Shown piece after piece: positions 10,311 to 64,000 of a stretch of 64,000 nt of DNA. A program made the position numbers and the translations under genes. The stretch comes from an uncultured Dehalococcoidia bacterium (GTDB taxonomy: Bacteria > Chloroflexota > Dehalococcoidia > Lucifugimonadales > Australimonadaceae): NCBI GenBank assembly GCA_958295525.1, contig OY282355.1, positions 2,227,931-2,291,930 on the forward strand, in the 5' to 3' direction. Position 1 is the stretch's first letter, and each line of letters begins with the position of its first letter. The notes under the pieces are model-generated. The model searched no databases. It was given only the letters and a program-made list of their open reading frames with translations, and had not been told where the DNA came from.

Positions 10311-12044
10311 TCACGGCTCTCCTCCGTCCTCCGCGCTCACCGCCGCCCACAGATCGCCCGCGCCCATCGGAATATGCGGAACAAAGCCCGTCACGCGGTC
10401 GTTGAACGCCCAACGCTCCGCCGCCCCCGCCGCCATAAAGAACAACGCCTCGCTCAGCAGCGCCCGTTGTATCTCCCGCGCCAGTTCCGCCCGCGCCGCG
10501 CCGTCCGTCTCCACCGCCTGACGCTCAATCAGCCCGTCCAACTCCGGCGTTCCGCCCGTTACGTTGAACGCCCCTTGCGAGTGCGCCAGCCCCAGCAAAA
10601 ATCCGTTCGGCGTGTCGGCGGGCGGCATCGGCCCCACGAAAGCGTCGTAGTCGCGCTCCTCCCACACCCGCCGGAGGTACGCCGCGCGGCTCAGCGGCTC
10701 CACTTCCACGTCGAAGCCTGCCGCAGTAAGTTGCGCCCCCAGAATCCGCCCGTGCGCCGCGTGCGCCTCCCCGAAATTGGCGACGATCAGCGTAATCCTC
10801 CGCGTGGCGCCCGCCGACTCCAGCGTCCGCCGCGCCTGCTCGGCGTCGCCGAACGCCGACGCGAACTCGTCCTCGCCGATCATCCAACGCGCATCCGCGA
10901 GCGGGACGCCCACCGACGCCGACCCGATGCCGAACGTCTCCTCGATCGCCGTCTCGGGCGAGAGCCCGAGGAACGCCGCGCGGCGGAGAGCGCGGTCGTC
11001 AAACGGCGGGCGCGCCGCGTTCAGCCCGAAGAGCGCGCCCCTGCCTCCGGGGCGCTCCGCCACCGCCGAGGAAAACCCCGCTTCCGCGAGCGCCGGCCAT
11101 TCCGCCTCCCGAATCTGCGCCATATCAACCCGCCCCTGCAGAAGCAGGCGCGCCGCCACCTCGCGGTTCGCCGCCGGATGAAACTCGATGCGCTCCGCTT
11201 TCACGCCAATCGCGGAATTCTCCCACGCCGTGAGCGTCGCCTGACCGGACGCGCTGCGATGAAAGATCCACGGGCCCGCGCCCGCAACCGGCTGCGTCCG
11301 GACATCCACGCCGTCCAGCGACTCCGGCGCGAGAATGACGGCGTAAGGGCTCGCCAGTTTCAACGGCAAGTCCGGGTCGGGGTAGCGCAAGTTGAAACGA
11401 ACGCTGCGCTCCCCCGCCGGCTCCACGCTCTCGACCGAATCGAAGAGCGCGGCGTGCGGACGCCCGGGCTCGCGCAGGCGGTTGATGCTGAACGCCACGT
11501 CCTGCGGCGTAACCGCCCGCGGCGCGAACCCCTCCGCCGGTTGCCACGCCGCGTCCGTCCTCAGATCGAACTCCGCGGCGCCGTCGTCCGTGAAACGCCA
11601 CGATTCGCACAGCCCGCATTCCGTCTCGAGCGTGGGCGTCTCTCCCGCGGCGATCACGAAACGCATCAGCCGTCCATGGCTGGGGCCGGGCCCGAACAGC
11701 GCCGCCCACTCCGAAACCGCCGCGTGCATATCCAAGTGCGGCGCAGCCCCCGTAACCGCCGCACGCAGCGTTCCGGCCGGCGGCGGAGCGAGCGTAGGGG
11801 TAGGCGCAGGCGCGGCGACGGTCGCCGTCGGCGCAGGAGACGGAGCGCCGGGAACGTCAGGAGGCGCGCACGACGCGGCCAGCGCCGCCCCCGCGAGCGC
11901 CAGCGCGGACAGAGCCCCGGCGCGGCCCAACACGGCCCTTCTCTCCCGCGGACGGCGCCTGTCGGCTACAATCCGAACTATGGAGGCAGCCGAATCTGAA
12001 ATTCTCCGCTCCAATCGCCCGCTGATTGACGGCCACGCGCACAT
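10311..12044 (-). CDS. Peptide/nickel-type ABC transporter substrate-binding lipoprotein
   Basis: This is a family 5 extracellular solute-binding protein that would deliver an oligopeptide or similar ligand to an ABC permease. The N-terminus has [10 protein letters not shown], a hydrophobic stretch and the lipobox LAASC, resembling a Tat lipoprotein signal. A Pro/Ala/Thr linker precedes the binding domain. No permease or ATPase is adjacent, so it is an orphan. The start is uncertain. ATG at 12044 gives 577 residues but overlaps the divergent TatD gene by 65 bases. TTG at 12014 or GTG at 11933 are alternatives, the last removing the twin arginines. Confidence 0.75.
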
Positions 12045-12810
12045 TGACCAGTTCGCGCCCGCCGACCTCGACCCGCTCTTGGCGCGCGCGGAGGCGGCGA
12101 ACGTCGGCCTGATTATAGCAGCGGGCGTAACGCTGGAGTCATGCCGCCGCGTCTGCGCCCTCGCGGACGAGCGCCCCCGGATCCGCGCAGGCGTCGGCCT
12201 GCACCCCGCCGACCTCGACGGATGGCTCGACGGCGCGGCGCTCGCCGAACTGCGCCGCCTCGCCCAGCGCCCCGGCGTCGTCGAATGGAGCGAAACCGGC
12301 CTCGACTATATGCCGAACTCTCCCGCCTACGACCTCCAGCAAGACGCCTTCCGCAAGCAGGTGCGCCTCGCCCGCGAATTCGGCCTGCCGCTCGTCACCC
12401 ACTCCCGCGAGGCCGACGAGGATATGCTCCGAATCCTCCGCGAGGAGCGCGCCGGAGAGGTCGGCGGCGCGTGGCACTACTTCCAGGGCGGCCTGCCGCT
12501 CGCCGAGCGCGTGCTGGAACTCGGCTTCTTCATCTCGCTCGCCAAGCCGTTGCTCCGCCTGCCGGAACTGCAGCGAGCCGCCGCCCAAATCCCGCTCGAC
12601 CGGATCGTCATCGAGACGGACTCCTACCCTCAGCCCTTCAAGAAGAACCCCGTCCGGCGCACCGAGCCCTGGCATCTTCCGCAAGTGGCGGCCAAACTCG
12701 CCGAACTCCACAACGTGGACGTCGAAACCGTCGCCGCGGCCACCACCGCCAACTACCTCCGAATGCTCGGCGGGCGCGTCAGCGTGGCGGAACTCGGCGC
12801 GCCCGCATAG
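11980..12810 (+). CDS. TatD-family metal-dependent hydrolase
   Basis: The 276-residue cytosolic protein has the DGHAH metal motif at 17-21, a Glu in VVEWSETGLDY near 95, a His in LPLVTHSRE near 133, a His in AWHYFQGG, and IETDSYPQPF near the C-terminus, in the order of TatD deoxyribonucleases and related amidohydrolases. The substrate is not certain. The ATG at 11980 lies 6 bases after a TACAAT box (11968-11973), which points to a leaderless transcript. The coding sequence overlaps the start region of the divergent lipoprotein gene. Confidence 0.85.
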   Translation: MEAAESEILRSNRPLIDGHAHIDQFAPADLDPLLARAEAANVGLIIAAGVTLESCRRVCALADERPRIRAGVGLHPADLDGWLDGAALAELRRLAQRPGVVEWSETGLDYMPNSPAYDLQQDAFRKQVRLAREFGLPLVTHSREADEDMLRILREERAGEVGGAWHYFQGGLPLAERVLELGFFISLAKPLLRLPELQRAAAQIPLDRIVIETDSYPQPFKKNPVRRTEPWHLPQVAAKLAELHNVDVETVAAATTANYLRMLGGRVSVAELGAPA

Positions 12811-12835
12811 CGAGCCGGGGGGAAGCCCGCAGCCG

Positions 12836-13408
12836 CTACAGCGGCATCCCCCAGATCGGGTACCACTCTTTGATTGCGCGGGAGGTCGGGAGCTCGCGGC
12901 GGGAGGCTTGCTCCATCCGCAGTTCGAGCGGGTGGTCGCGCTTCTCCGGCTTGTCGTCCTCCGGGGCGGGAACGAACGGCGTGAACGCCTTGATGCGCGG
13001 CTGGTAGATCCAGTAGATGCGCTGCGACTTCCACGTGAACGGGTAGACCGCAGCCAGCACGCGCGGGCCGATTCCGACCGCGACGAGCGCTTCCCCGACC
13101 ACGCGGACGGCGCTCGCCAGGTCGGGCAGGCCGGAGCCGCGCACGATGACCCACGGATGGACGTTCTCCGAAGCGTCCATTTCCACGTCCCAGCGCGCTT
13201 CGGAGGACGTGAGGCGCTCGAGCGCGCGCTCCAGTTCGGCTTTCGCTTGGGGCGCGTCCTGATCGGGCGCGGGGCGCACCAGCACGCCCGCCTTGCCGGT
13301 GGGGAAGGTGTCGAGCTCCTGCTCGAACATCTGCGCGGCCCGCCCCATCGCCTCGTGCGCCGGGCCCCACTCGCCTTGCCGTTGGTTGCTTGAGAGGAAC
13401 TTGCACAT
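12836..13408 (-). CDS. pspAB: PspA-associated protein PspAB
   Basis: This is a 190-residue protein without a signal peptide. Its C-terminal block (YPFTWKS, FTPFVPAP, DHPLELRME, then ELPTSRAIKEWYPIWGMPL) matches the conserved end of PspAB, a family found beside HtpX or PspA in Actinobacteria and Chloroflexota and thought to act in envelope stress. The start at 13408 has a GAGGGG element 7 bases upstream and lies 5 bases after the htpX stop, so the two genes are translationally linked. No pspA gene is in the window. Confidence 0.75.
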   Translation of the reverse strand: MCKFLSSNQRQGEWGPAHEAMGRAAQMFEQELDTFPTGKAGVLVRPAPDQDAPQAKAELERALERLTSSEARWDVEMDASENVHPWVIVRGSGLPDLASAVRVVGEALVAVGIGPRVLAAVYPFTWKSQRIYWIYQPRIKAFTPFVPAPEDDKPEKRDHPLELRMEQASRRELPTSRAIKEWYPIWGMPL

Positions 13409-31269: not shown

Positions 31270-31836
31270 TTACTTGACGAAGAGCGGGGTGCTGGCGGCG
31301 CCGCCCACGACGGCGTAGGTTCCGGCGTCGAGTCCGTCATGCCGGACATCAACGGAGGCCATCCCGCCGGCGTTGGCGGTGGCCATGCCGAGGTCGTAGT
31401 CCGAGCCGTCCTCGAACACCAGCATTACGCTGACTTCCTCGCCGGAGTCGAAGCCGGTGAAGACCGCGGTCGTGCTGACGGGGAGGCTGGCGGAGAAGGT
31501 GTCCCGCATCAGCGTAACGGCTCTCGCGCCGCCGTCCTGTCCGGGGACGCCGGGGACGCCGGGGACGCCCGCCGCGCCGGGGGCGCCGTCAGCGCCTGGC
31601 GCGCCATCGGAGCCTGCGGGGCCGCGCGCGCCAACCGCGCCTTGGGGGCCGCGCGCTCCGGCGGGGCCTGCCGGGCCGGCGGGGCCCGCCGCTCCGTCAG
31701 CGCCCGTCGCTCCGGCGGGGCCTGCCGGGCCTGCGGGGCCGGTGGCTCCGTCCGCGCCGCTGCACGCGGCCGCGAAGAGGCTCAGGAGAGCTACGAGGAG
31801 CACCAAAGATATGTTCCTAACGCTGAAGCGGTTCAT
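31270..31836 (-). CDS. Collagen-like lipoprotein with a small C-terminal head
   Basis: Surface lipoprotein of 188 residues. The signal peptide ([20 protein letters not shown]) ends in the lipobox FAAAC with the lipidated Cys at 25. It is followed by 25 uninterrupted Gly-X-Y triplets (about 28-102), rich in GPA and GxD, that should form a trimeric triple helix. The C-terminal head of about 85 residues ([20 protein letters not shown] onward, [13 protein letters not shown]) is predicted beta-rich and resembles no domain I know. It shares its layout with the N-terminal half of the protein at 60799-62742. A consensus promoter lies at 31937-31965. Confidence 0.85.
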
Positions 31837-56040: not shown

Positions 56041-56090
56041 CAACGGCGGATTCGCATCCGAAATTCCGACGGCAGGTGAAGACGACGGCA

Positions 56091-57797
56091 ATGGCTGACC
56101 ATGACGTTCTTGTTGTGGGGGCGGGGCTCGCGGGAATGCGGGCCGCGATCGCCGCGCACCGCGCTGGCGCCAGCGTGGCGATGATGAGCAAGGTGCATCC
56201 CGTTCGGAGCCACTCGAACGCCGCGCAGGGCGGCATCAACGCCGCGCTCCGAGGGGCCGACGACTCCGTCGACTCCCACGTGTTCGATACGGTGAAGGGC
56301 TCCGACTACCTCGGCGACCAGGACGCCATCGAGTATATGTGCGCCGAGGCGCCTTCCGAGATCATCGCCCTCGAGCATATGGGCGTCATCTTCAACCGCG
56401 ACGAGGAAGGGCGGCTGGGGACGCGGGCGTTCGGCGGCGCGAGTTACGCCCGCACCTTCTTCGTGGCCGACATCACGGGGCAGGCGATTCTGCACGTGAT
56501 GTACGAGCAGATTATGAAGGCCGGGGTCCGCTCCTACGAAGAGTGGTTCGTGACCGACCTGATCGTCGAGGACGGCGCCTGCAAGGGCGTGATCGCTATG
56601 GAGATGCTCACGGGCAAACTCCGGGCGGTCTCCGCCAAGACGGTCATCCTCGCGTCCGGCGGCGTAGGGAGAGCGTTCGAGCCGAGCACGAACGCGCTGA
56701 TCTGCACGGGCGACGGCATCGCGCTCGCCTACCGCGCCGGCGCCACGCTGCTGGATATGGAGATGGTGCAATACCATCCGACGACGCTCGCGGGCAACGG
56801 GGTGCTGCTGTCGGAAGCGGCGCGCGGCGAGGGGGCGTATCTCCTCAACTCCAAAGGCGAGCGCTTTATGGAGCACTACGCTCCGAAGATGAAGGAACTC
56901 GCCTCCCGCGACGTGGTGTCCCGCTCCGAGCAGACGGAGATAGAGGAAGGGCGCGGCGTGGACGGCTGCGTGCTGCTGGACTTGCGCCACCTCGGTCGGG
57001 AACTCATCCTCACGAAGTTGAAGTACATCTACGAGGCGGCGCGCGACTACGCGGGCGTGGATATGGCGGACGACCCGGTGCCCATTCGCCCGGGCCAGCA
57101 CTACATTATGGGCGGGATCAAGACGGATATTGACGCGCGCGCGTGGGACGCCGCAGGCTCCGCCGGATGGGACGGCCCGCGGGGGCTTTTCGCCGCGGGC
57201 GAGGCCGCCTGCGTGAGCGTTCACGGCGGCAACCGCCTCGGCGCGAACTCGCTGCTGGAGACGGTCGTCTTCGGCAAGCGCGCGGGAGAGGTCGCCGCGG
57301 CCTACGCCCGCGAGACGCCGGACTTCGAGGTTCCGCCGTCGCGCCTCGCGGACGCCGAGCGCGGCCTCAAGGAACTGCTCGACCGCCCCGACAACGGGGA
57401 GATGACGGGAGCGCTGCGGCTGGAGATGGGCCGCGTGATGAACGAGCATCTCGCCGTCTTCCGAACGGAAGACGGGATGCGAACGGCGCTCGCGGAAATA
57501 CGCTCGCTCAAGGAGCGCTATCAGTCGCTCCCCGTCAAGCACAAGGGCGGCGTCTACAACACCGACCTGATCTTCCACGTCGAGTTGGGCTATATGCTGG
57601 ACTCTTCCGAGGCTATCGTCGCGTCCGGCCTGCTCCGTAAAGAGAGCCGCGGCGCGCACTTCCGGCGCGACATCCCCGACCGGAACGACGGGGAATGGCT
57701 GAAGCACACCACCGCGCGCTTGGGCGCGGACGGCCCGGAAGTCGGGACGCTGCCCGTCACGGTGACGCGGTGGGAGCCGCAGGCGAGGGTCTACTAG
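56091..57797 (+). CDS. sdhA: Succinate dehydrogenase/fumarate reductase flavoprotein subunit
   Basis: Catalytic FAD subunit of 568 residues that interconverts succinate and fumarate. The FAD loop is [14 protein letters not shown] (8-21). His 41 in [15 protein letters not shown] is the site of covalent FAD attachment. Substrate-binding stretches include [20 protein letters not shown] and [14 protein letters not shown]. No Tat signal is present, so it faces the cytosol. ATG 56091 begins the family core; a GTG 15 bases upstream is in frame. It leads the cluster that includes sdhB and an HdrB-like subunit, with a lipoprotein gene overlapping its stop codon. Confidence 0.93.
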
Positions 57798-58846
57798 TGC
57801 GCGTTGCGATGCGGCGGGTCTTTCGCGGCGGCGCCGCGGCTCTGGCCGCGGCCGCCCTCGCCGCCGCTTGCGGCGGCGGCTCCGACGCGCCCGCTCCCTC
57901 AATCGTGACCCGCTACGCGCCACCGGACGCGGGAATGATCGCCTGGGTCGACGCGGAGCAGGCCGCCGCGTACCTCGGCGAGTCGCTGGACATTCTGCCG
58001 GAGAGCCTGATCGGCGCGTTTCCGCTCGACGAGGCGCTCGGCGCGTTGACGGAGGAGTCCGGCTTCGACGTCGCCGGCCTCTCCGAGGTTATGGCGTTCG
58101 CCAACGCCGACTTGGACGGCGGGGCCGTCGTGCTCGACGGCGTGACCGTGGACGATTTCCTGCAGCGCGTTCGGGATCTGCTGGGCGACGCCGAATTAGA
58201 GGAGAAGTCCCATCGGGGCGCCGCAATGATCGAAACGCCCACTGACTCGGACGGCGGCGCTCTGGCCGCCGCCGCAGTTCGGGACGGCGACGGCCCCGAA
58301 CTGCATATCATTGGAACGGCGAACGAGGTGCGGGCGGCGATAGACCGGCAAGCCGACGCGCGCGAAGGAAACGGAGACGCCGACGGCCCGGCGCTCGAGG
58401 CGCTGCGCGCGCTCGGAGACGGCTGGACGCGGTTTGCGATGGCCGTCCCCGACGGCGCGTTCGGCGATCTGACCGACGCGCTGCCGGACGAGTACGGCGG
58501 CCTCTTCGCCGGGGTGGACGCGGGCGTTCTCTCCGGCCTAACGCTGGCCGGTTTCGCGGCGAACCGCGAAGACGGCGGCGCGGAGCGCTGGACGCTGCGC
58601 CTCGAATACGCCGACGACGACGGCGCGGAGCGCGCCGCGAGCCTGGCCGAGGGGGCGATCGCCGTAAGCAAGGCGCTCACGCCGGAGGGGGCGTCGCTGG
58701 ATGTTTTAGATGCCGCGGAAGTCTCCCGCGACGGAACGGCGGTCACGGTCGTCTCCTCCGCGACGGCGGAGCAGGCGGAGGCGCTCCGCGCTGAGCAGGC
58801 CGAGGCGCTCCGGAATCAGATAGACAGCCTGGGGATGGCGCTCTAA
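57797..58846 (+). CDS. Lipoprotein of unknown function between sdhA and sdhB
   Basis: The 349-residue protein starts at GTG 57797, overlapping the sdhA stop (TAGTG), with GAGGG 7 bases upstream; ATG 57809 is an alternative. A signal peptide ends in the lipobox LAAAC. The mature part is acidic and Ala/Asp/Glu-rich with no Cys, and contains repeated patterns such as SIVTRYAPPDAGMIAWVDAE, DGVTVDDFLQRVRDLLGDAE and, at the C-terminus, AEQAEALRAEQAEALRNQ. It looks like a DUF3352-type secreted protein, but I cannot name a family with confidence. Its placement inside the sdh operon is unexpected. Confidence 0.7.
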   Translation: MRVAMRRVFRGGAAALAAAALAAACGGGSDAPAPSIVTRYAPPDAGMIAWVDAEQAAAYLGESLDILPESLIGAFPLDEALGALTEESGFDVAGLSEVMAFANADLDGGAVVLDGVTVDDFLQRVRDLLGDAELEEKSHRGAAMIETPTDSDGGALAAAAVRDGDGPELHIIGTANEVRAAIDRQADAREGNGDADGPALEALRALGDGWTRFAMAVPDGAFGDLTDALPDEYGGLFAGVDAGVLSGLTLAGFAANREDGGAERWTLRLEYADDDGAERAASLAEGAIAVSKALTPEGASLDVLDAAEVSRDGTAVTVVSSATAEQAEALRAEQAEALRNQIDSLGMAL

Positions 58847-58890: not shown

Positions 58891-59853
58891 ATGCAAGCGA
58901 AGATTCGCGTTCAGCGCTACGACCCTGAGAGTTCCGAGCAGCCCTGGCTGCAGGAGTACGACGTTGACGCGCCGGAGCGCTACTCCGTGCTCGACGCGCT
59001 CGTCAAGGTTCGGGAGGAGATAGACCCCAGCCTCGCGCTCCGGTGCTCGTGCCGCGCGGCCATCTGCGGCTCCTGCGCGATGCGGGTGAACGACCAAGCG
59101 CGGCTCGCCTGCAACACGCGCCTCAGCTCCGTCGTGGAGGACGGCGGAACGGTGAAGATCGAGCCGATGGGCAACCAGCGGGTCGTGAAAGACCTGGTGG
59201 TCGACCTGCAACTCTTCTGGGGCAAGGTTCGCGCGGTGCAGCCCTACCTTCAGCCGGACGCGGAGCCGGGGCCGGAAGAGGAGTTCATCGCGTCCAACGA
59301 GTCTATGCTCAACCTGCTGACTCCAATGGGCTGCATTATGTGCGGAGCGTGCGTTTCGGACTGCACGGCGCTGGAGGTCGACGAGAACTTCTTGGGCCCC
59401 GCCGCGCTCGCCAAGTCGTACCGCTTCGTGGCCGACCCGCGCGACGGCAAGAGCGGGGAGCGGCTGGGCGCGCTGAACGAGTACGGCGGCGTGTGGGACT
59501 GCGCGCGCTGCTATATGTGCGTCGAGGTTTGCCCGAAGGGCGTCGCGCCGATGGACCGCATTATGGAGTTGCGCGAGTCGGTCATGGCGTCGGGAGCGCC
59601 CGGCACGCCCGGGTCGCGCCACGTGCAATCGTTCGCCAACTCGGTCGCGCGGTCGGGCTGGCTGGACGAGACGATGCTCGCCGTGGACTCGTGGGGCAAG
59701 AAGAACGTGCCGAAACTGCTGAGCGAGGCGCCGCTAGGCATTCGGGCGCTCCGGCGCGGCAAGTTCCCAATGCCGGCGTTCCTGCATCACAAGCGCCCCG
59801 GCCACCGGAACGTCCGCCGGATATTCGAGCGGGCGGAAGCGGGCAAGGAGTAG
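58891..59853 (+). CDS. sdhB: Succinate dehydrogenase/fumarate reductase iron-sulfur subunit
   Basis: Electron-transfer subunit of 320 residues. The 2Fe-2S cluster is bound by Cys 54, 59, 62 and 74 (CRAAICGSC...C). Two further cysteine groups, CIMCGACVSDC and CARCYMCVEVCPKG, hold the remaining clusters. The C-terminal extension of about 60 residues (KKNVPKLLSEAPLGIRALRR) is longer than in classical SdhB and typical of non-classical enzymes that dock to a CCG-domain subunit. Confidence 0.92.
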   Translation: MQAKIRVQRYDPESSEQPWLQEYDVDAPERYSVLDALVKVREEIDPSLALRCSCRAAICGSCAMRVNDQARLACNTRLSSVVEDGGTVKIEPMGNQRVVKDLVVDLQLFWGKVRAVQPYLQPDAEPGPEEEFIASNESMLNLLTPMGCIMCGACVSDCTALEVDENFLGPAALAKSYRFVADPRDGKSGERLGALNEYGGVWDCARCYMCVEVCPKGVAPMDRIMELRESVMASGAPGTPGSRHVQSFANSVARSGWLDETMLAVDSWGKKNVPKLLSEAPLGIRALRRGKFPMPAFLHHKRPGHRNVRRIFERAEAGKE

Positions 59854-59855
59854 CG

Positions 59856-60743
59856 ATGAAGTACGCGTTCTACCCCGGCTGCGTCTCGCGCGGCGGCACG
59901 CCGGAACTCTACACGTCCACGATGGCCATCGCCGGAAGGCTCGGGCTGGAGTTGGAGGAGATTCACGGCGCCTCCTGCACCGGCGCGGGCGTGTTGCAAG
60001 AGAAGGGACAGAAACTCGGCGACACGCTCAACGCCCGGACGTTCGCAATGGCCGAGCGCATGGGGCTGACCACGATCCTCAACATCTGCTCCACCTGCCA
60101 GGGCGTGATGGCGCAGGCGAACCACCGGCTGCTGGCCGACCCGGACTACCTTGCGGAAGTGAACCGGGAACTGGCGGGAGAAGGGCTGGAGTACACGGGC
60201 AGAATCGTCATCAAGCACCTCGCCTGGGCGATCGTGGAGGAAGTGGGGCTGGACGCGCTCAAGAGCCTGGTCGTCGCGCCGCTGCGGGATCTGAAGGTCG
60301 CGCCGTTCTACGGGTGTTACATCCTGCGCCCGTCGTGGGCGCTGGGGCTCGACGAAAACCCCGGGCGCGAGCATTACTTGGAGCGGATCATCGAAACCTG
60401 CGGGGCGGAGCCCGTCAACTTCCCCGGGCGCGTGAAGTGCTGCGGGTTTCCCATTATGCTCATCAACGAGCGGAACTCGATGGCGATGGTCGCCAATCAC
60501 ACGACGAGCGCGCGCGATCACGGAGCGGACGCGATGGTCACGCCGTGCCCGCTCTGCCATCTGAACCTGGACGGCCAGCAGCCGAAGGCGGCCTCCCAGC
60601 GCGGCGAGAAGATCAATATGCCGATTCTCCACCTTCCGCAGATGATCGGAATGGCGATGGGGCTCTCGCGCAAGGAACTGGGCTTGGGACGGCATATCGT
60701 CAGCGCGAAACCGCTTCTGGAAAAGGCGAGCGTCCGCGTCTAG
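59856..60743 (+). CDS. HdrB-like CCG-domain subunit (SdhE type) of the succinate dehydrogenase
   Basis: The 295-residue protein has two cysteine-rich CCG domains: YPGCVSRGG with ICSTCQGVM in the first half, and [32 protein letters not shown] in the second. It replaces the haem-b membrane anchor in type E succinate dehydrogenases and methylmenaquinol:fumarate reductases, binding the membrane peripherally and passing electrons to or from quinone. It starts 2 bases after sdhB. No SdhC or SdhD membrane subunit is in the window, supporting the non-classical complex. Confidence 0.9.
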
Positions 60744-60798
60744 CAATGAGCCGCGGCGGCGAGCCGCGGCGCGGATTTTTACGGAGGAGGACCCAAGA

Positions 60799-62742
60799 AT
60801 GCGGCAGTTGGCGATTGCGGCGGTTCTGATGATGGCGCTCGGCCTGATGGCGGCGTGCGCCGGAGAGGCGGGGATGCAAGGCCCGGACGGCCCCGCAGGC
60901 CCGCAAGGCCCGGCCGGAGCGGTCGGCGCTCAAGGGCCCGCCGGACCCCCGGGGGCGGACGGAGCGCGAGGCCCCGCCGGACCCGCTGGATCCGCCGGGC
61001 CGGCCGGAGCGGACGGAGCGGATGGAGCGGATGGAGCGCGAGGCTCCGCCGGAGCGCGAGGCCCCGCCGGACCCGCCGGGCAGCAAGGCCCCGCAGGCCC
61101 TCCGGGGACGGTCGCGGCCGCCGCCGCGCCCACGAAAGCGGAGCCCGGCGCCTACACCAAGGCGTTCGTGCAAAAGGCGATCGACCGCTACGCGCGCGAC
61201 GGGCGCCAGGCGACGCTCGACTACTACAACTCAGGCGACGGCAACGACGGAGAGTGGTACGTCTTCATCATCGGAGCGGACAACCGCATCGTCGCTCAGG
61301 GAGGCTTCCCCGAGCGCGTCGGCCTCGACATCGCCACTAGGACGGACGTAACGGGCTACGCCTACGGCAAGGAACTAGCCTCCGCGACCGAAGACGGGAA
61401 GTGGGTGAGTTACGTTTTCATTAACCCCCAGACGCAGCGGCAGAACGCCAAGCATACCTGGGTCGTGAAGAGCGGCGGGCTCATCTTCGGATCCGGCTGG
61501 TACGAGCGCTCCTATGAGGCCGCGCCGACGAAAGCCGAGCCGGGCGCGTACACCAAGTCGTTCGTGCAGGCGGCGATCACCCGCTATATGAGACAGGGAC
61601 GAGAGGCGGCCATCGCCTACTACAACACGCAAGAGAGCGTGGACGGCGAGTGGTACGTCTTCATCGCCGACGAAAACAACCGCATCGTCTCCCACGCGAC
61701 GCTCCCGGAGGAAGTCGGAATGGCCCTCGACGGCCCGGACGGCGTCGACGTAACGGGCTATGAATTCGGCGCGGATATGATCACTGCGACGGGCGAAGGC
61801 AAGTGGGTGAACTACCGCTTCCGCAACCCCGCGCGCGGCAACGCCATCGAGACGAAGCATTCTTGGGTCGTGCGGCACGACGGGCTGCTGTTCGGCTCCG
61901 GCTGGTACGAGCGCCCCTCCCAAGCCGCGCCCACGAAGGCCGACCCGCAAGCGTACACGGTGGCGTTCGTGGAGGACGCGCTGCGCCGTTACGAGCGCGA
62001 CGGGCTGGACGCCGCGAAGGCGCGCCACAACGACCCGGAGAACGCGGACGGCGAGTGGTACGTCTTCATCATTGACGAGGACGGCGTTCTCATCGCGCAT
62101 CCGAACCCGGACTTCCGCGGCGGCGACATCAACGGGCCGCTGGGGACGGACGTCACCGGCTACACCTTCGGAACCGAGATGCTCGCCGCGCCCGAGGAAG
62201 GCGCGTGGGTTGACTACGTGTTCCTGAATCCGGCGACGGGGCAACAAGAGGTCAAGCATTCGTGGGCCGTGAAGCGCGACGGCATGGTCTTCGGCTCCGG
62301 CTGGTACGAGCGTCTGTTCGCTCCCGCGCCGACGAAGGCCGATCCTCCGGCGTTCACGGTGGCGTTCGTGGAGGAAGCGCTGCGCCGCTACGAGCGCGAC
62401 GGGATGGAAGCCACCAGGGCGCATTACAATACGGAGGAGAGCACGGACGGGGAGTGGTACGTCTTCATCGCCGACGATAGCGGCGTTCTCATCGCGCATC
62501 CGAATCCGGATGCTCGAGGCGACAACTTGAACGGCTCGCTGGGGACGGACGACACCGGCTACCGCTTCGGGCCGGAAATACTCACCGCGCCCGAAGAGGG
62601 CAAGTGGGTGGAGTACGTGTTCCTCAACTTGGAGTCAGGCGAGCCAGAACTCAAGCGCTCATGGGTGGTGAAGCGCGACGGGCTGATCTTCGGCTCCGGC
62701 TGGTACGAGCATTACTTCGCCTCCGGCGCCGCCGGACTCTGA
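60799..62742 (+). CDS. Lipoprotein with a collagen-like stalk and four tandem Cache-like domains
   Basis: The 647-residue surface protein has a signal peptide with lipobox LMAAC (Cys 20) and 28 uninterrupted Gly-X-Y triplets (about 22-105). Four copies of a domain of about 133 residues follow, starting near 110, 243, 377 and 511. Each contains A(Y/F)T.(S/A)[13 protein letters not shown], an (I/V)(I/V)(S/A)H or IAHPNPD strand, DVTGY.FG, E.GKWV.Y.F.NP, KHSWVV and FGSGWYE. This matches single Cache (sCache_2-like) extracellular sensor domains, but there is no transmembrane helix or signalling domain, so it is a ligand-binding or adhesive filament. A GGAGGAGG site and a terminator at 62777-62810 bound the gene. 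Confidence 0.85.
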
Positions 62743-62966: not shown

Positions 62967-63641
62967 CTACTCCCCGAAGCCGATGTCGGCTTCGTAGGCG
63001 CTCATCATTTCGGCGGCGAGTTCTTGCAGCGACTCGAACGGCGGCTCGTCCTCCGGCGCGGGCGGCGCGGACGGCGCGGACGGCGCGGACGACGATTCCT
63101 CGCCGCCGTCCGCCGCGGCGCGCATCGCATCCTCCATCGAGCGGTTGAGCGCGTTGCGGAGCACGAGCGCGGCGGAGCGGCTGACGCGGGCGAGGAGAAG
63201 GCCGTACTCGAAACTCATGCTGACGGCGTTCTGCGCGCTTTCGGCGTCGGAATGCTCGGACTCCTCCAGCGTTTGCAGGAGGTCGTGCAGGAAGTCCTCG
63301 GGGCCGAGCGCCTCGGTGGCTTGGCGGGCGGCGGCGACCTGCCGCTCCAGCGGCTCCGCGCACTCCGCGGCGATGCGCTCGACCTCGCCCGGGTGCGTCT
63401 GCTCCAGTATCGGCAGGATGCGGGCGGGGAAGTCCACGCCGACCGCGCAGCCTAATCCGAACGCGCCGACGGCGGCCTCCGCGAGCGGCTCGCTCTCGAA
63501 GAACGTGTCATTCCCGTGCTCGTGCGAGGGCGCGTTTTCGAGGTGCAGGAGAACGACGACGTCGGTGAACGCGAGGGGGCCGCCGGCGCCGCTGTCGCCG
63601 CCCGAAGGGACGGGCTCGAGCGGGATGACGCGGTTGGACAA
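62967..63641 (-). CDS. Conserved-type protein of unknown function
   Basis: The 224-residue acidic protein starts at TTG 63641, 13 bases after the mdh stop, with GAGG 6 bases upstream, so it is cotranscribed with mdh. It contains FTDVVVLLHLENAPSHEHGN, FLHDLLQTLEESEHSDAESA, a VSMSFEYGLLLARVSRSAAL helix and a Ser/Ala/Pro linker before a short C-terminal helix (FESLQELAAEMMSAYEADIG). No signal peptide, membrane segment or cofactor motif is visible. Function not recognised. Confidence 0.6.
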   Translation of the reverse strand: MSNRVIPLEPVPSGGDSGAGGPLAFTDVVVLLHLENAPSHEHGNDTFFESEPLAEAAVGAFGLGCAVGVDFPARILPILEQTHPGEVERIAAECAEPLERQVAAARQATEALGPEDFLHDLLQTLEESEHSDAESAQNAVSMSFEYGLLLARVSRSAALVLRNALNRSMEDAMRAAADGGEESSSAPSAPSAPPAPEDEPPFESLQELAAEMMSAYEADIGFGE

Positions 63642-63654
63642 CGGCGGCCTCGCG

Positions 63655-64000
63655 TCAGTTCGCGGGAGCGGTCGCCATAACCTCGACGAGTTCGCGGACG
63701 GCGTCCGCCGACTTGTCGAGCGCGGCCTTCTCGCCCGCCGTGAGGTCGAGTTCGACGACGCGCTCGACGCCGCCCGCGCCGAGGATGACCGGAACGCCCA
63801 TATAGACGCCGCTAATGCCGTACTCGCCCTCCAAGAGCGCGGCGCAAGGGAGCAGGCGCTTCTGATCGAGGAGAATAGCGTCCACCATTTCGGCGACCGC
63901 GGCGGAGGGAGCGTAGAAGGCGCTGCCGGTTTTGAGGAGCGCGACGATCTCGCCGCCGCCGCCTTGCGCGCGCTTGACGATGCGGTCGAGCGCCTCGGCG
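63655..64000 (-). CDS. mdh: Malate dehydrogenase, C-terminal part (gene runs off the right edge)
   Basis: The last 114 codons of a lactate/malate dehydrogenase are present: [20 protein letters not shown], then [20 protein letters not shown], then [20 protein letters not shown] and the closing helix. The [19 protein letters not shown] stretch is typical of the LDH-like malate dehydrogenases of Chloroflexota. Active-site residues lie outside the window. Together with the sdh genes it belongs to the TCA cycle. Confidence 0.88.

Follow-up and report, generated by a model that had tools for sequence, protein, structure and literature searches.

The locus analysed here raises the question of what four copies of a sensor domain do on a collagen-like stalk. 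The abstract of PMC5062169 names Cache-like domains as the commonest extracellular sensor module of prokaryotes. The gene is part of a stretch of 64,000 nucleotides from an uncultured Dehalococcoidia bacterium (the window), and an earlier note on this DNA had described its product as four tandem Cache-like domains carried by 28 Gly-X-Y triplets, with neither a transmembrane helix nor an output domain. The analysis bears out this description (Table 1).

Table 1. Features of the Cache-array gene and its surroundings, with positions in the window.
Feature	Position	Strand	Basis
SdhA-like flavoprotein	56076..57797	+	FAD_binding_2, Succ_DH_flav_C
SdhB-like iron-sulphur subunit	58891..59853	+	Fer2_3, Fer4_8
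CCG-domain (SdhE/HdrB-like) subunit	59856..60743	+	CCG
Terminator-like hairpin with T tail, between CCG-domain gene and Cache gene	60750..60770	+	hairpin scan; 3 in region, 3.7 expected from shuffles
Shine-Dalgarno-like GGAGGAGG, ribosome-binding site	60783..60790	+	sequence
Whole gene: lipoprotein (predicted) with collagen stalk and four sCache_2-type domains, 647 aa	60799..62742	+	ORF list, translation, Pfam scan
Signal peptide with terminal lipobox LMAAC (Cys20)	60799..60858	+	sequence; hydropathy peak at residues 4-22
Gly-X-Y stalk, 28 triplets without break, aa 22-105	60862..61113	+	repeat scan, Pfam
Cache repeat 1, aa 111-242, pocket Y-Q-Y-K (variant)	61129..61524	+	Pfam, repeat and pocket alignments
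Cache repeat 2, aa 243-377, pocket Y-H-Y-K	61525..61929	+	Pfam, repeat and pocket alignments
Cache repeat 3, aa 378-511, pocket Y-H-Y-K; repeat modelled alone	61930..62331	+	Pfam, alignments, structure model
Cache repeat 4, aa 512-647, pocket Y-H-Y-K	62332..62739	+	Pfam, repeat and pocket alignments
Uncharacterised 224-aa ORF, convergent, kept beside the Cache gene in the genus	62967..63641	-	no Pfam match
Lactate/malate dehydrogenase, C-terminal part, cut by window end	63655..63999	-	Ldh_1_C

Anchor and collagen stalk

The motif at residues 16-20, which follows a hydrophobic stretch, is taken here to be a lipobox by its pattern, and lipidation of the protein is predicted. When the protein sequence was shuffled 2000 times, Gly-X-Y runs reached at most 7 triplets, compared with 28 in the real sequence, and the Pfam Collagen model matched with 53.2 bits (cut-off 27.2). 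If a triple helix formed, the 84 stalk residues would presumably span about 24 nm. The stalk trimer is a prediction, and the twelve binding sites per assembly proposed earlier are conditional on it. No transmembrane helix was seen beyond residue 25 of the 647-aa protein (best 19-residue hydropathy mean 0.76), and a Pfam scan of the chain revealed no output domain of the chemoreceptor or sensor-kinase type. Solute-binding-protein domains of Pfam were likewise not found up to E = 1, either in the whole protein or in single repeats.

A Gly-X-Y stalk with a globular part is also present in the collagen-like surface proteins Scl1/SclA, Scl2/SclB, Lcl and BclA. The NCBIfam models of the first three were the best ones, yet their scores remained far below the adhesin cut-offs (41.3 of 400, 53.6 of 325 and 37.1 of 500 bits, respectively), which indicates that only the repeats match. 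These collagen-like surface proteins are anchored through LPXTG or in the spore coat, whereas in the window protein a lipobox anchor precedes the stalk. The window protein further differs from Scl, Lcl and BclA in its head of four Caches of the ligand-binding type and in having no separate trimerisation domain that could be recognised. Its parts are already known and their arrangement appears to be new; no paper on Cache domains carried by a collagen stalk was found among the open-licence papers of PubMed Central, and the word 'cache' is absent from PMC8968730.

In the order of the window bacterium, lipoproteins with a collagen stalk seem to be widely used for display. Of 250 genomes from this order, 223 gave Pfam Collagen matches, versus 3 of 14 control genomes, so that almost every member of the order seems to have collagen-like proteins. 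By a simple pattern, a lipobox was located directly before the longest Gly-X-Y run in 26 of 34 collagen ORFs, which are not a random set. The heads carried by these stalks include trypsin-like peptidase and ligand-binding domains. Bacterial collagen stalks would be a platform for the display of ligand-binding domains as well as adhesins.

The window genome contains three Collagen matches above the cut-off, namely the Cache gene, a gene at window positions 31270-31836 (-) and a gene for a protein with an SBP_bac_3 domain. The second of these encodes a collagen lipoprotein with 26 Gly-X-Y triplets, whose 84-aa head belongs to no Pfam family, and it is convergent with genes for an ABC permease and ATPase. 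Four congeners (L083, L086, L090, L091) have a gene like it at a distance of about 3 kb from sdhA. The third (L003:1471-3000) is again a collagen lipoprotein, in which the stalk and a similar small head are followed by SBP_bac_3. In other genomes, a collagen-stalked lipoprotein with a trypsin-like peptidase head is encoded at L118:241-1314 (-), and L138 looks alike. At L198:7331-8113 (+), a collagen run is followed by a C-terminal hydrophobic stretch, and four Cache ORFs are present in the same locus.

Fold and predicted ligand pocket of the Cache repeats

The repeats are about 134 aa long, and repeats 2-4 share 49-58% identity with repeat 1. Analyzed alone, repeats 1-4 scored 27.8, 25.2, 36.6 and 27.8 bits against sCache_2 (PF17200, cut-off 25), and with E values of 0.001 or below the same model also matched 40 of 47 units of the family. 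The best-matching stretches of single repeats begin at profile positions 30-42 of 155; in the model of repeat 3, the N-terminal helix comprises residues 8-26. This model, calculated with an alignment of 47 units as input, reached a mean pLDDT of 94.5, and its best structural matches were sCache_2 domains: 4K08 (Z 16.1, rmsd 2.4, 123 residues), 2QHK (Z 16.0), 4EXO (15.4), 5G4Y (15.0) and TlpB (about 13). A profile search of PDB sequences led to TlpB, 4K08 and 5G4Y. As modelled, the repeat has a Cache fold, so that the earlier note withstands the first of its refuting conditions, a repeat fold unrelated to Cache. In fold and HMM family the window repeats resemble the sensor domains of PscD (5G4Y/5G4Z), Adeh_3718 (4K08), a Vibrio protein (4EXO) and TlpB. 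In contrast to the sCache_2 domains of chemoreceptors, they are arranged in tandem at the distal end of a stalk and are not followed by a transmembrane helix or MCP part. With its small size and, by prediction, good folding, a single repeat would allow a direct test of the main claim developed below.

The residues that contact the ligand could be compared with those of PscD, in which, according to a passage of PMC5062169, Tyr90, His103, Tyr143 and Lys156 hold the propionate while Trp92 and Trp145 sandwich it. The alignment comprised 307 units from 112 proteins, leaving out masked units and those spanning about 100 model positions or fewer. Tyrosine corresponds to Tyr90 in 285 units, histidine to His103 in 255, tyrosine to Tyr143 in 287 and lysine to Lys156 in 286. 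The complete tetrad is present in 235 of the 307 units, and both tyrosines occur together with the lysine in 272. The four carboxylate contacts are a feature shared with PscD. Window repeats 2-4 harbor the full set, whereas one of the four window pockets departs from the canonical residues, as glutamine replaces histidine in repeat 1. The sandwich positions hold phenylalanine (254) or tyrosine (26) at site 92 and phenylalanine (192), tyrosine (48) or tryptophan (18) at site 145. According to a passage of PMC12415202, these sites hold phenylalanine or tryptophan in characterised sCache_2 domains, and the His/Leu site holds histidine in characterised pyruvate-type domains and leucine in the L-lactate sensors of one study.

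Since the contact residues of solved sCache_2 domains are retained, a ligand-binding function gains weight, and binding of short carboxylates by the Cache units is predicted from these conserved contacts. A difference occurs at the position of the PscD wall residue Phe126, which is replaced by glycine in 293 of the 307 family units. This suggests a different, perhaps roomier pocket, and the ligand may not be a C2-C3 compound.

The protein is interpreted here as a multivalent array displayed on the surface, which would capture small acids for uptake, and not as a signalling receptor, an interpretation to which we give about an even chance. The lipid anchor and the collagen-like stalk would hold four small-molecule-binding Caches off the membrane. 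Each of them would probably bind a short-chain carboxylate of the acetate, pyruvate and propionate class or a somewhat larger acid, with a probably different specificity in repeat 1. A likely role of the array would be to enrich the ligand on the cell surface so that it can be taken up, presumably by being handed to a transporter.

The Caches could alternatively be stiff beads of a structural spacer or surface-layer part in which ligand binding is vestigial. Modelled together, the four repeats form separate folded beads (pLDDT 84.2) with uncertain relative placement; due to its pTM of 0.40, the orientations between repeats are not read from it. Both these beads and the variable repeat number described below would suit a spacer, but a tetrad that is complete in most units, with both tyrosines and the lysine kept in still more, is hard to reconcile with a vestigial pocket and makes this alternative very unlikely.

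Genomic site and distribution of the Cache arrays

The Cache gene starts 55 bases past the stop codon of the CCG-domain gene, which itself follows the SdhA- and SdhB-like genes. The position directly downstream of succinate dehydrogenase genes, to which the earlier note had drawn attention, is conserved in the genus and was not seen in the other loci examined. The order sdhB-sdhE-Cache-orf-mdh is kept in all five congeners examined, and sdhA was seen in four of them, as the contig of the fifth ends too early. Between the SdhA- and SdhB-like genes, the window harbors a 383-aa lipoprotein-like ORF (57695-58846 (+)) with no Pfam match and no match in the loci of the congeners. A shared operon function with succinate dehydrogenase was considered and rejected. 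Among 215 loci an SdhE query matched only the window genome and its congeners, and the link to sdh therefore looks lineage-specific.

The Cache proteins of the congeners at this site possess an N-terminal membrane anchor and no collagen. Four of them carry 2, 2, 3 and 3 Cache units, and the fifth (G003) is partly masked. SdhE of the window is 89-91% identical to its congener counterparts, versus 54-56% for the Cache regions, and the window units do not group with the units of the congeners in a tree of 74 units. Replacement or reshuffling of the Cache gene at the sdh site within the genus would explain this most simply. For the last two Caches of four congeners, pairwise dN/dS was 0.09-0.16 in six of six comparisons, which indicates purifying selection on the arrays of these four. 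In the same genomes, SdhB and SdhE showed values of 0.02-0.06 and the neighbouring ORF 0.09-0.16.

Homologues with varied repeat number, which the earlier note had suggested to look for, do exist. Such Cache units occur in at least 49 of 250 genomes of the order and in 37 of a sample of 400 genomes of the phylum. Loci were selected for Cache matches (40 regions among the matches listed for the order, plus 20 from another search). The 40 loci among named genomes comprise, by title, 21 from Caldilineaceae, 8 from Chloroflexi or Chloroflexota, 3 from Dehalococcoidia, 2 from Acidimicrobiia, one each from Actinomycetes, Poribacteria and Binatota, and 3 labelled only 'bacterium'. A placement of the window genome by 16S was set aside; 5 of 9 named genomes matched, and the best of them, from Caldilineaceae, showed 80-81% identity over 1281 bases. 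The family set consists of 116 distinct proteins; it leaves out those contained in a longer protein or sharing a 60-aa core with it, as well as proteins from the 400-genome phylum sample. One to eight Caches were found per protein, with 28, 37, 18, 15, 7, 10 and 1 proteins carrying 1, 2, 3, 4, 5, 6 and 8 units, respectively. In crude classes, a lipobox anchor is combined with a short linker in 41 proteins, with a Gly-X-Y stalk in 11 and with another long spacer in 17, and a membrane or signal anchor with a short linker in 30 and a long spacer in 7; 4 proteins are Pro/Thr-rich and 6 unclear. Thus the window protein belongs to a family with interchangeable anchors and stalks. More than 40 residues follow the last Cache in only four of the 116 proteins, namely a fusion with glucose/sorbosone dehydrogenase (GSDH), a fusion of SBP_bac_3 with a truncated Cache, and two loci in which stretches are masked. 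In two of the 116 proteins, the first Cache is followed by a hydrophobic stretch.

The 11 collagen-stalked Cache proteins derive from the window genome and from G024, G077, G094, G095, G099, G190, G191, G194, G209 and G210. Six of them were included in the unit tree (74 units, 20 loci, 124 columns), in which many forks are unresolved. For G024, G077, G190, G194 and G210, all non-last units fall into one set (100/97) and all last units into another (100/96). The four window units fall outside both sets, and window repeats 3 and 4 are sisters (100/94). From this tree, collagen stalks on Cache arrays probably had at least two origins. The MDR-rich spacers of Caldilineaceae paralogues were also considered as frame-shifted collagen and rejected, as the other frames contained stops or no long Gly-X-Y run (11 loci).

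Periplasmic binding proteins pass signals in trans to some chemoreceptors, and the lipoprotein could in a similar way be a co-receptor that binds its ligand and signals to a membrane kinase or cyclase. The conserved pocket would be compatible with this, as would the normally sensory role of Cache domains stated in the abstract of PMC5062169. However, a search for the MCP signalling domain gave no match in the window genome, while 7 of 14 control genomes matched; this is a weak point against a co-receptor, as the search covered the MCP domain alone. In addition, up to eight Caches on unrelated kinds of stalk suggest no fixed signalling geometry, and signalling in trans is considered distinctly improbable. 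No other sCache_2 protein was found in the window genome.

Many homologues appear to originate from MAGs of sponge symbionts, and the window bacterium is probably a sponge symbiont as well. This is presumed in part from the naming habits of a symbiosis sequencing project. It is also suggested by the taxa and by bin names (IRC, RHO, COS, APA) that fit the sponges given as sampled in a passage of PMC8163846. In some sponge-associated Thaumarchaeota, Cache domains (Pfam) are enriched and host recognition was proposed for them (PMC7848895). The likeness to the Cache-array family lies in the enrichment of Cache domains among sponge symbionts, but the relevant passage is confined to Pfam enrichment and names no collagen stalk or tandem array.

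This setting would also accommodate an adhesin or host-contact protein, in which the Caches would form a head that binds proteins or glycans and serves attachment in sponge tissue. Such a role is in line with the proposal for Thaumarchaeota (PMC7848895), with the apparent sponge origin of many homologues, with the seeming exchange of the gene at the sdh site and the varying repeat number, and with the adhesin function of other bacterial collagen-like proteins (NCBIfam names Lcl, SclA and SclB; abstracts on Lcl and Pcl7). It is nevertheless unlikely in our view, because the polar pocket residues kept across the 307 units are not required of a purely adhesive surface. The overall dN/dS likewise gives no indication of diversifying selection, a result with which adhesion is still compatible. 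Of the ligand-scavenging or adhesive surface filament put forward in the earlier note, ligand binding has therefore been strengthened by the retained contacts, adhesion is without direct support, and the word filament exceeds the evidence.

Neighbouring genes and a possible role in uptake

The window protein resembles SBP_bac_3 and Peripla_BP_6 lipoproteins in its predicted properties, as both are lipid-anchored and extracytoplasmic, contain a small-ligand pocket and lack an output domain. Among the loci examined, these binding domains are fused to Caches or carried by the same kind of stalk. Two Caches are combined with Peripla_BP_6 at L063:407-2782, SBP_bac_3 follows the truncated Cache in L198, and a Cache pair is joined to a GSDH domain at L199:4093-6525. 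The window protein differs from solute-binding lipoproteins in its Cache fold, in having more than one site per chain, in the length of its stalk and in the lack of an adjoining transporter gene; its gene is surrounded by respiratory genes and an ORF without Pfam match.

Neighbouring genes were clustered for proteins of at least 120 aa from 100 loci. In four clusters, at least three families were represented by genes no more than 800 bases away from a Cache gene, and none of the four adjoins the Cache gene of the window. In one of them, a permease gene lies within this distance in L076/L200 (one contig), L085, L089, L196, L198 and L201, a raw count of six distinct contigs and three families. 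The permease gene overlaps the edge of the Cache frame in L209 and is far off in L098. The L198 permease (10948-13251 (-)) matched Xan_ur_permease with 115 bits (cut-off 27), and the other copies are 30-36% identical to it. This adjacency supports a link of the Cache family with uptake in loci other than that of the window. The name of the permease family suggests nucleobase-type substrates rather than short carboxylates, and no collagen-stalked Cache protein was present in the loci with an adjoining permease.

Capture by the window array is favoured by the fold match, the conserved pocket, the lack of a signalling part in cis, the lack of an MCP match in the genome and the purifying selection in four congeners. 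Uptake is favoured by Peripla_BP_6 in L063, by SBP_bac_3 in L198 and, within the window genome, in L003, and by the adjacent permeases. On the other side stand the respiratory neighbours of the window gene without an adjoining transporter, the permease loci without a collagen stalk and the nucleobase-type family of their permeases. The Phe126 replacement, GSDH (not a binding protein) as one fusion partner, and the lack of a recognised separate trimerisation domain are further points against capture. The affinities reported for sCache_2 domains in a passage of PMC5062169 are tens to hundreds of micromolar, which is weak for scavenging and also argues against the capture of small acids.

If the capture interpretation holds, a lineage known here from MAGs seems to have put the sensor pocket to a use other than signalling, in the form of a displayed array. 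Should small acids be bound, this would offer a way to study how these bacteria may obtain nutrients from seawater or from the tissue of a host. A wider and rather doubtful extension is that Cache arrays, trimerised where collagen-stalked, form a new class of binding lipoproteins that harvest small acids in place of periplasmic solute-binding proteins on sponge-associated bacteria. Their anchors, stalks and repeat numbers would be swapped freely, and within the sponge niche the class would have spread from phylum to phylum (Chloroflexota, Acidimicrobiia, Poribacteria, Binatota).

A second neighbour cluster comprises a large secreted protein of the L193:737-4201 (+) type with at most a weak DUF4625 match, whose gene adjoins Cache genes on the same strand in L097, L176, L190, L193 and L199. 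By eye, one of the remaining two clusters looks like a shadow frame and the other like a short-chain dehydrogenase.
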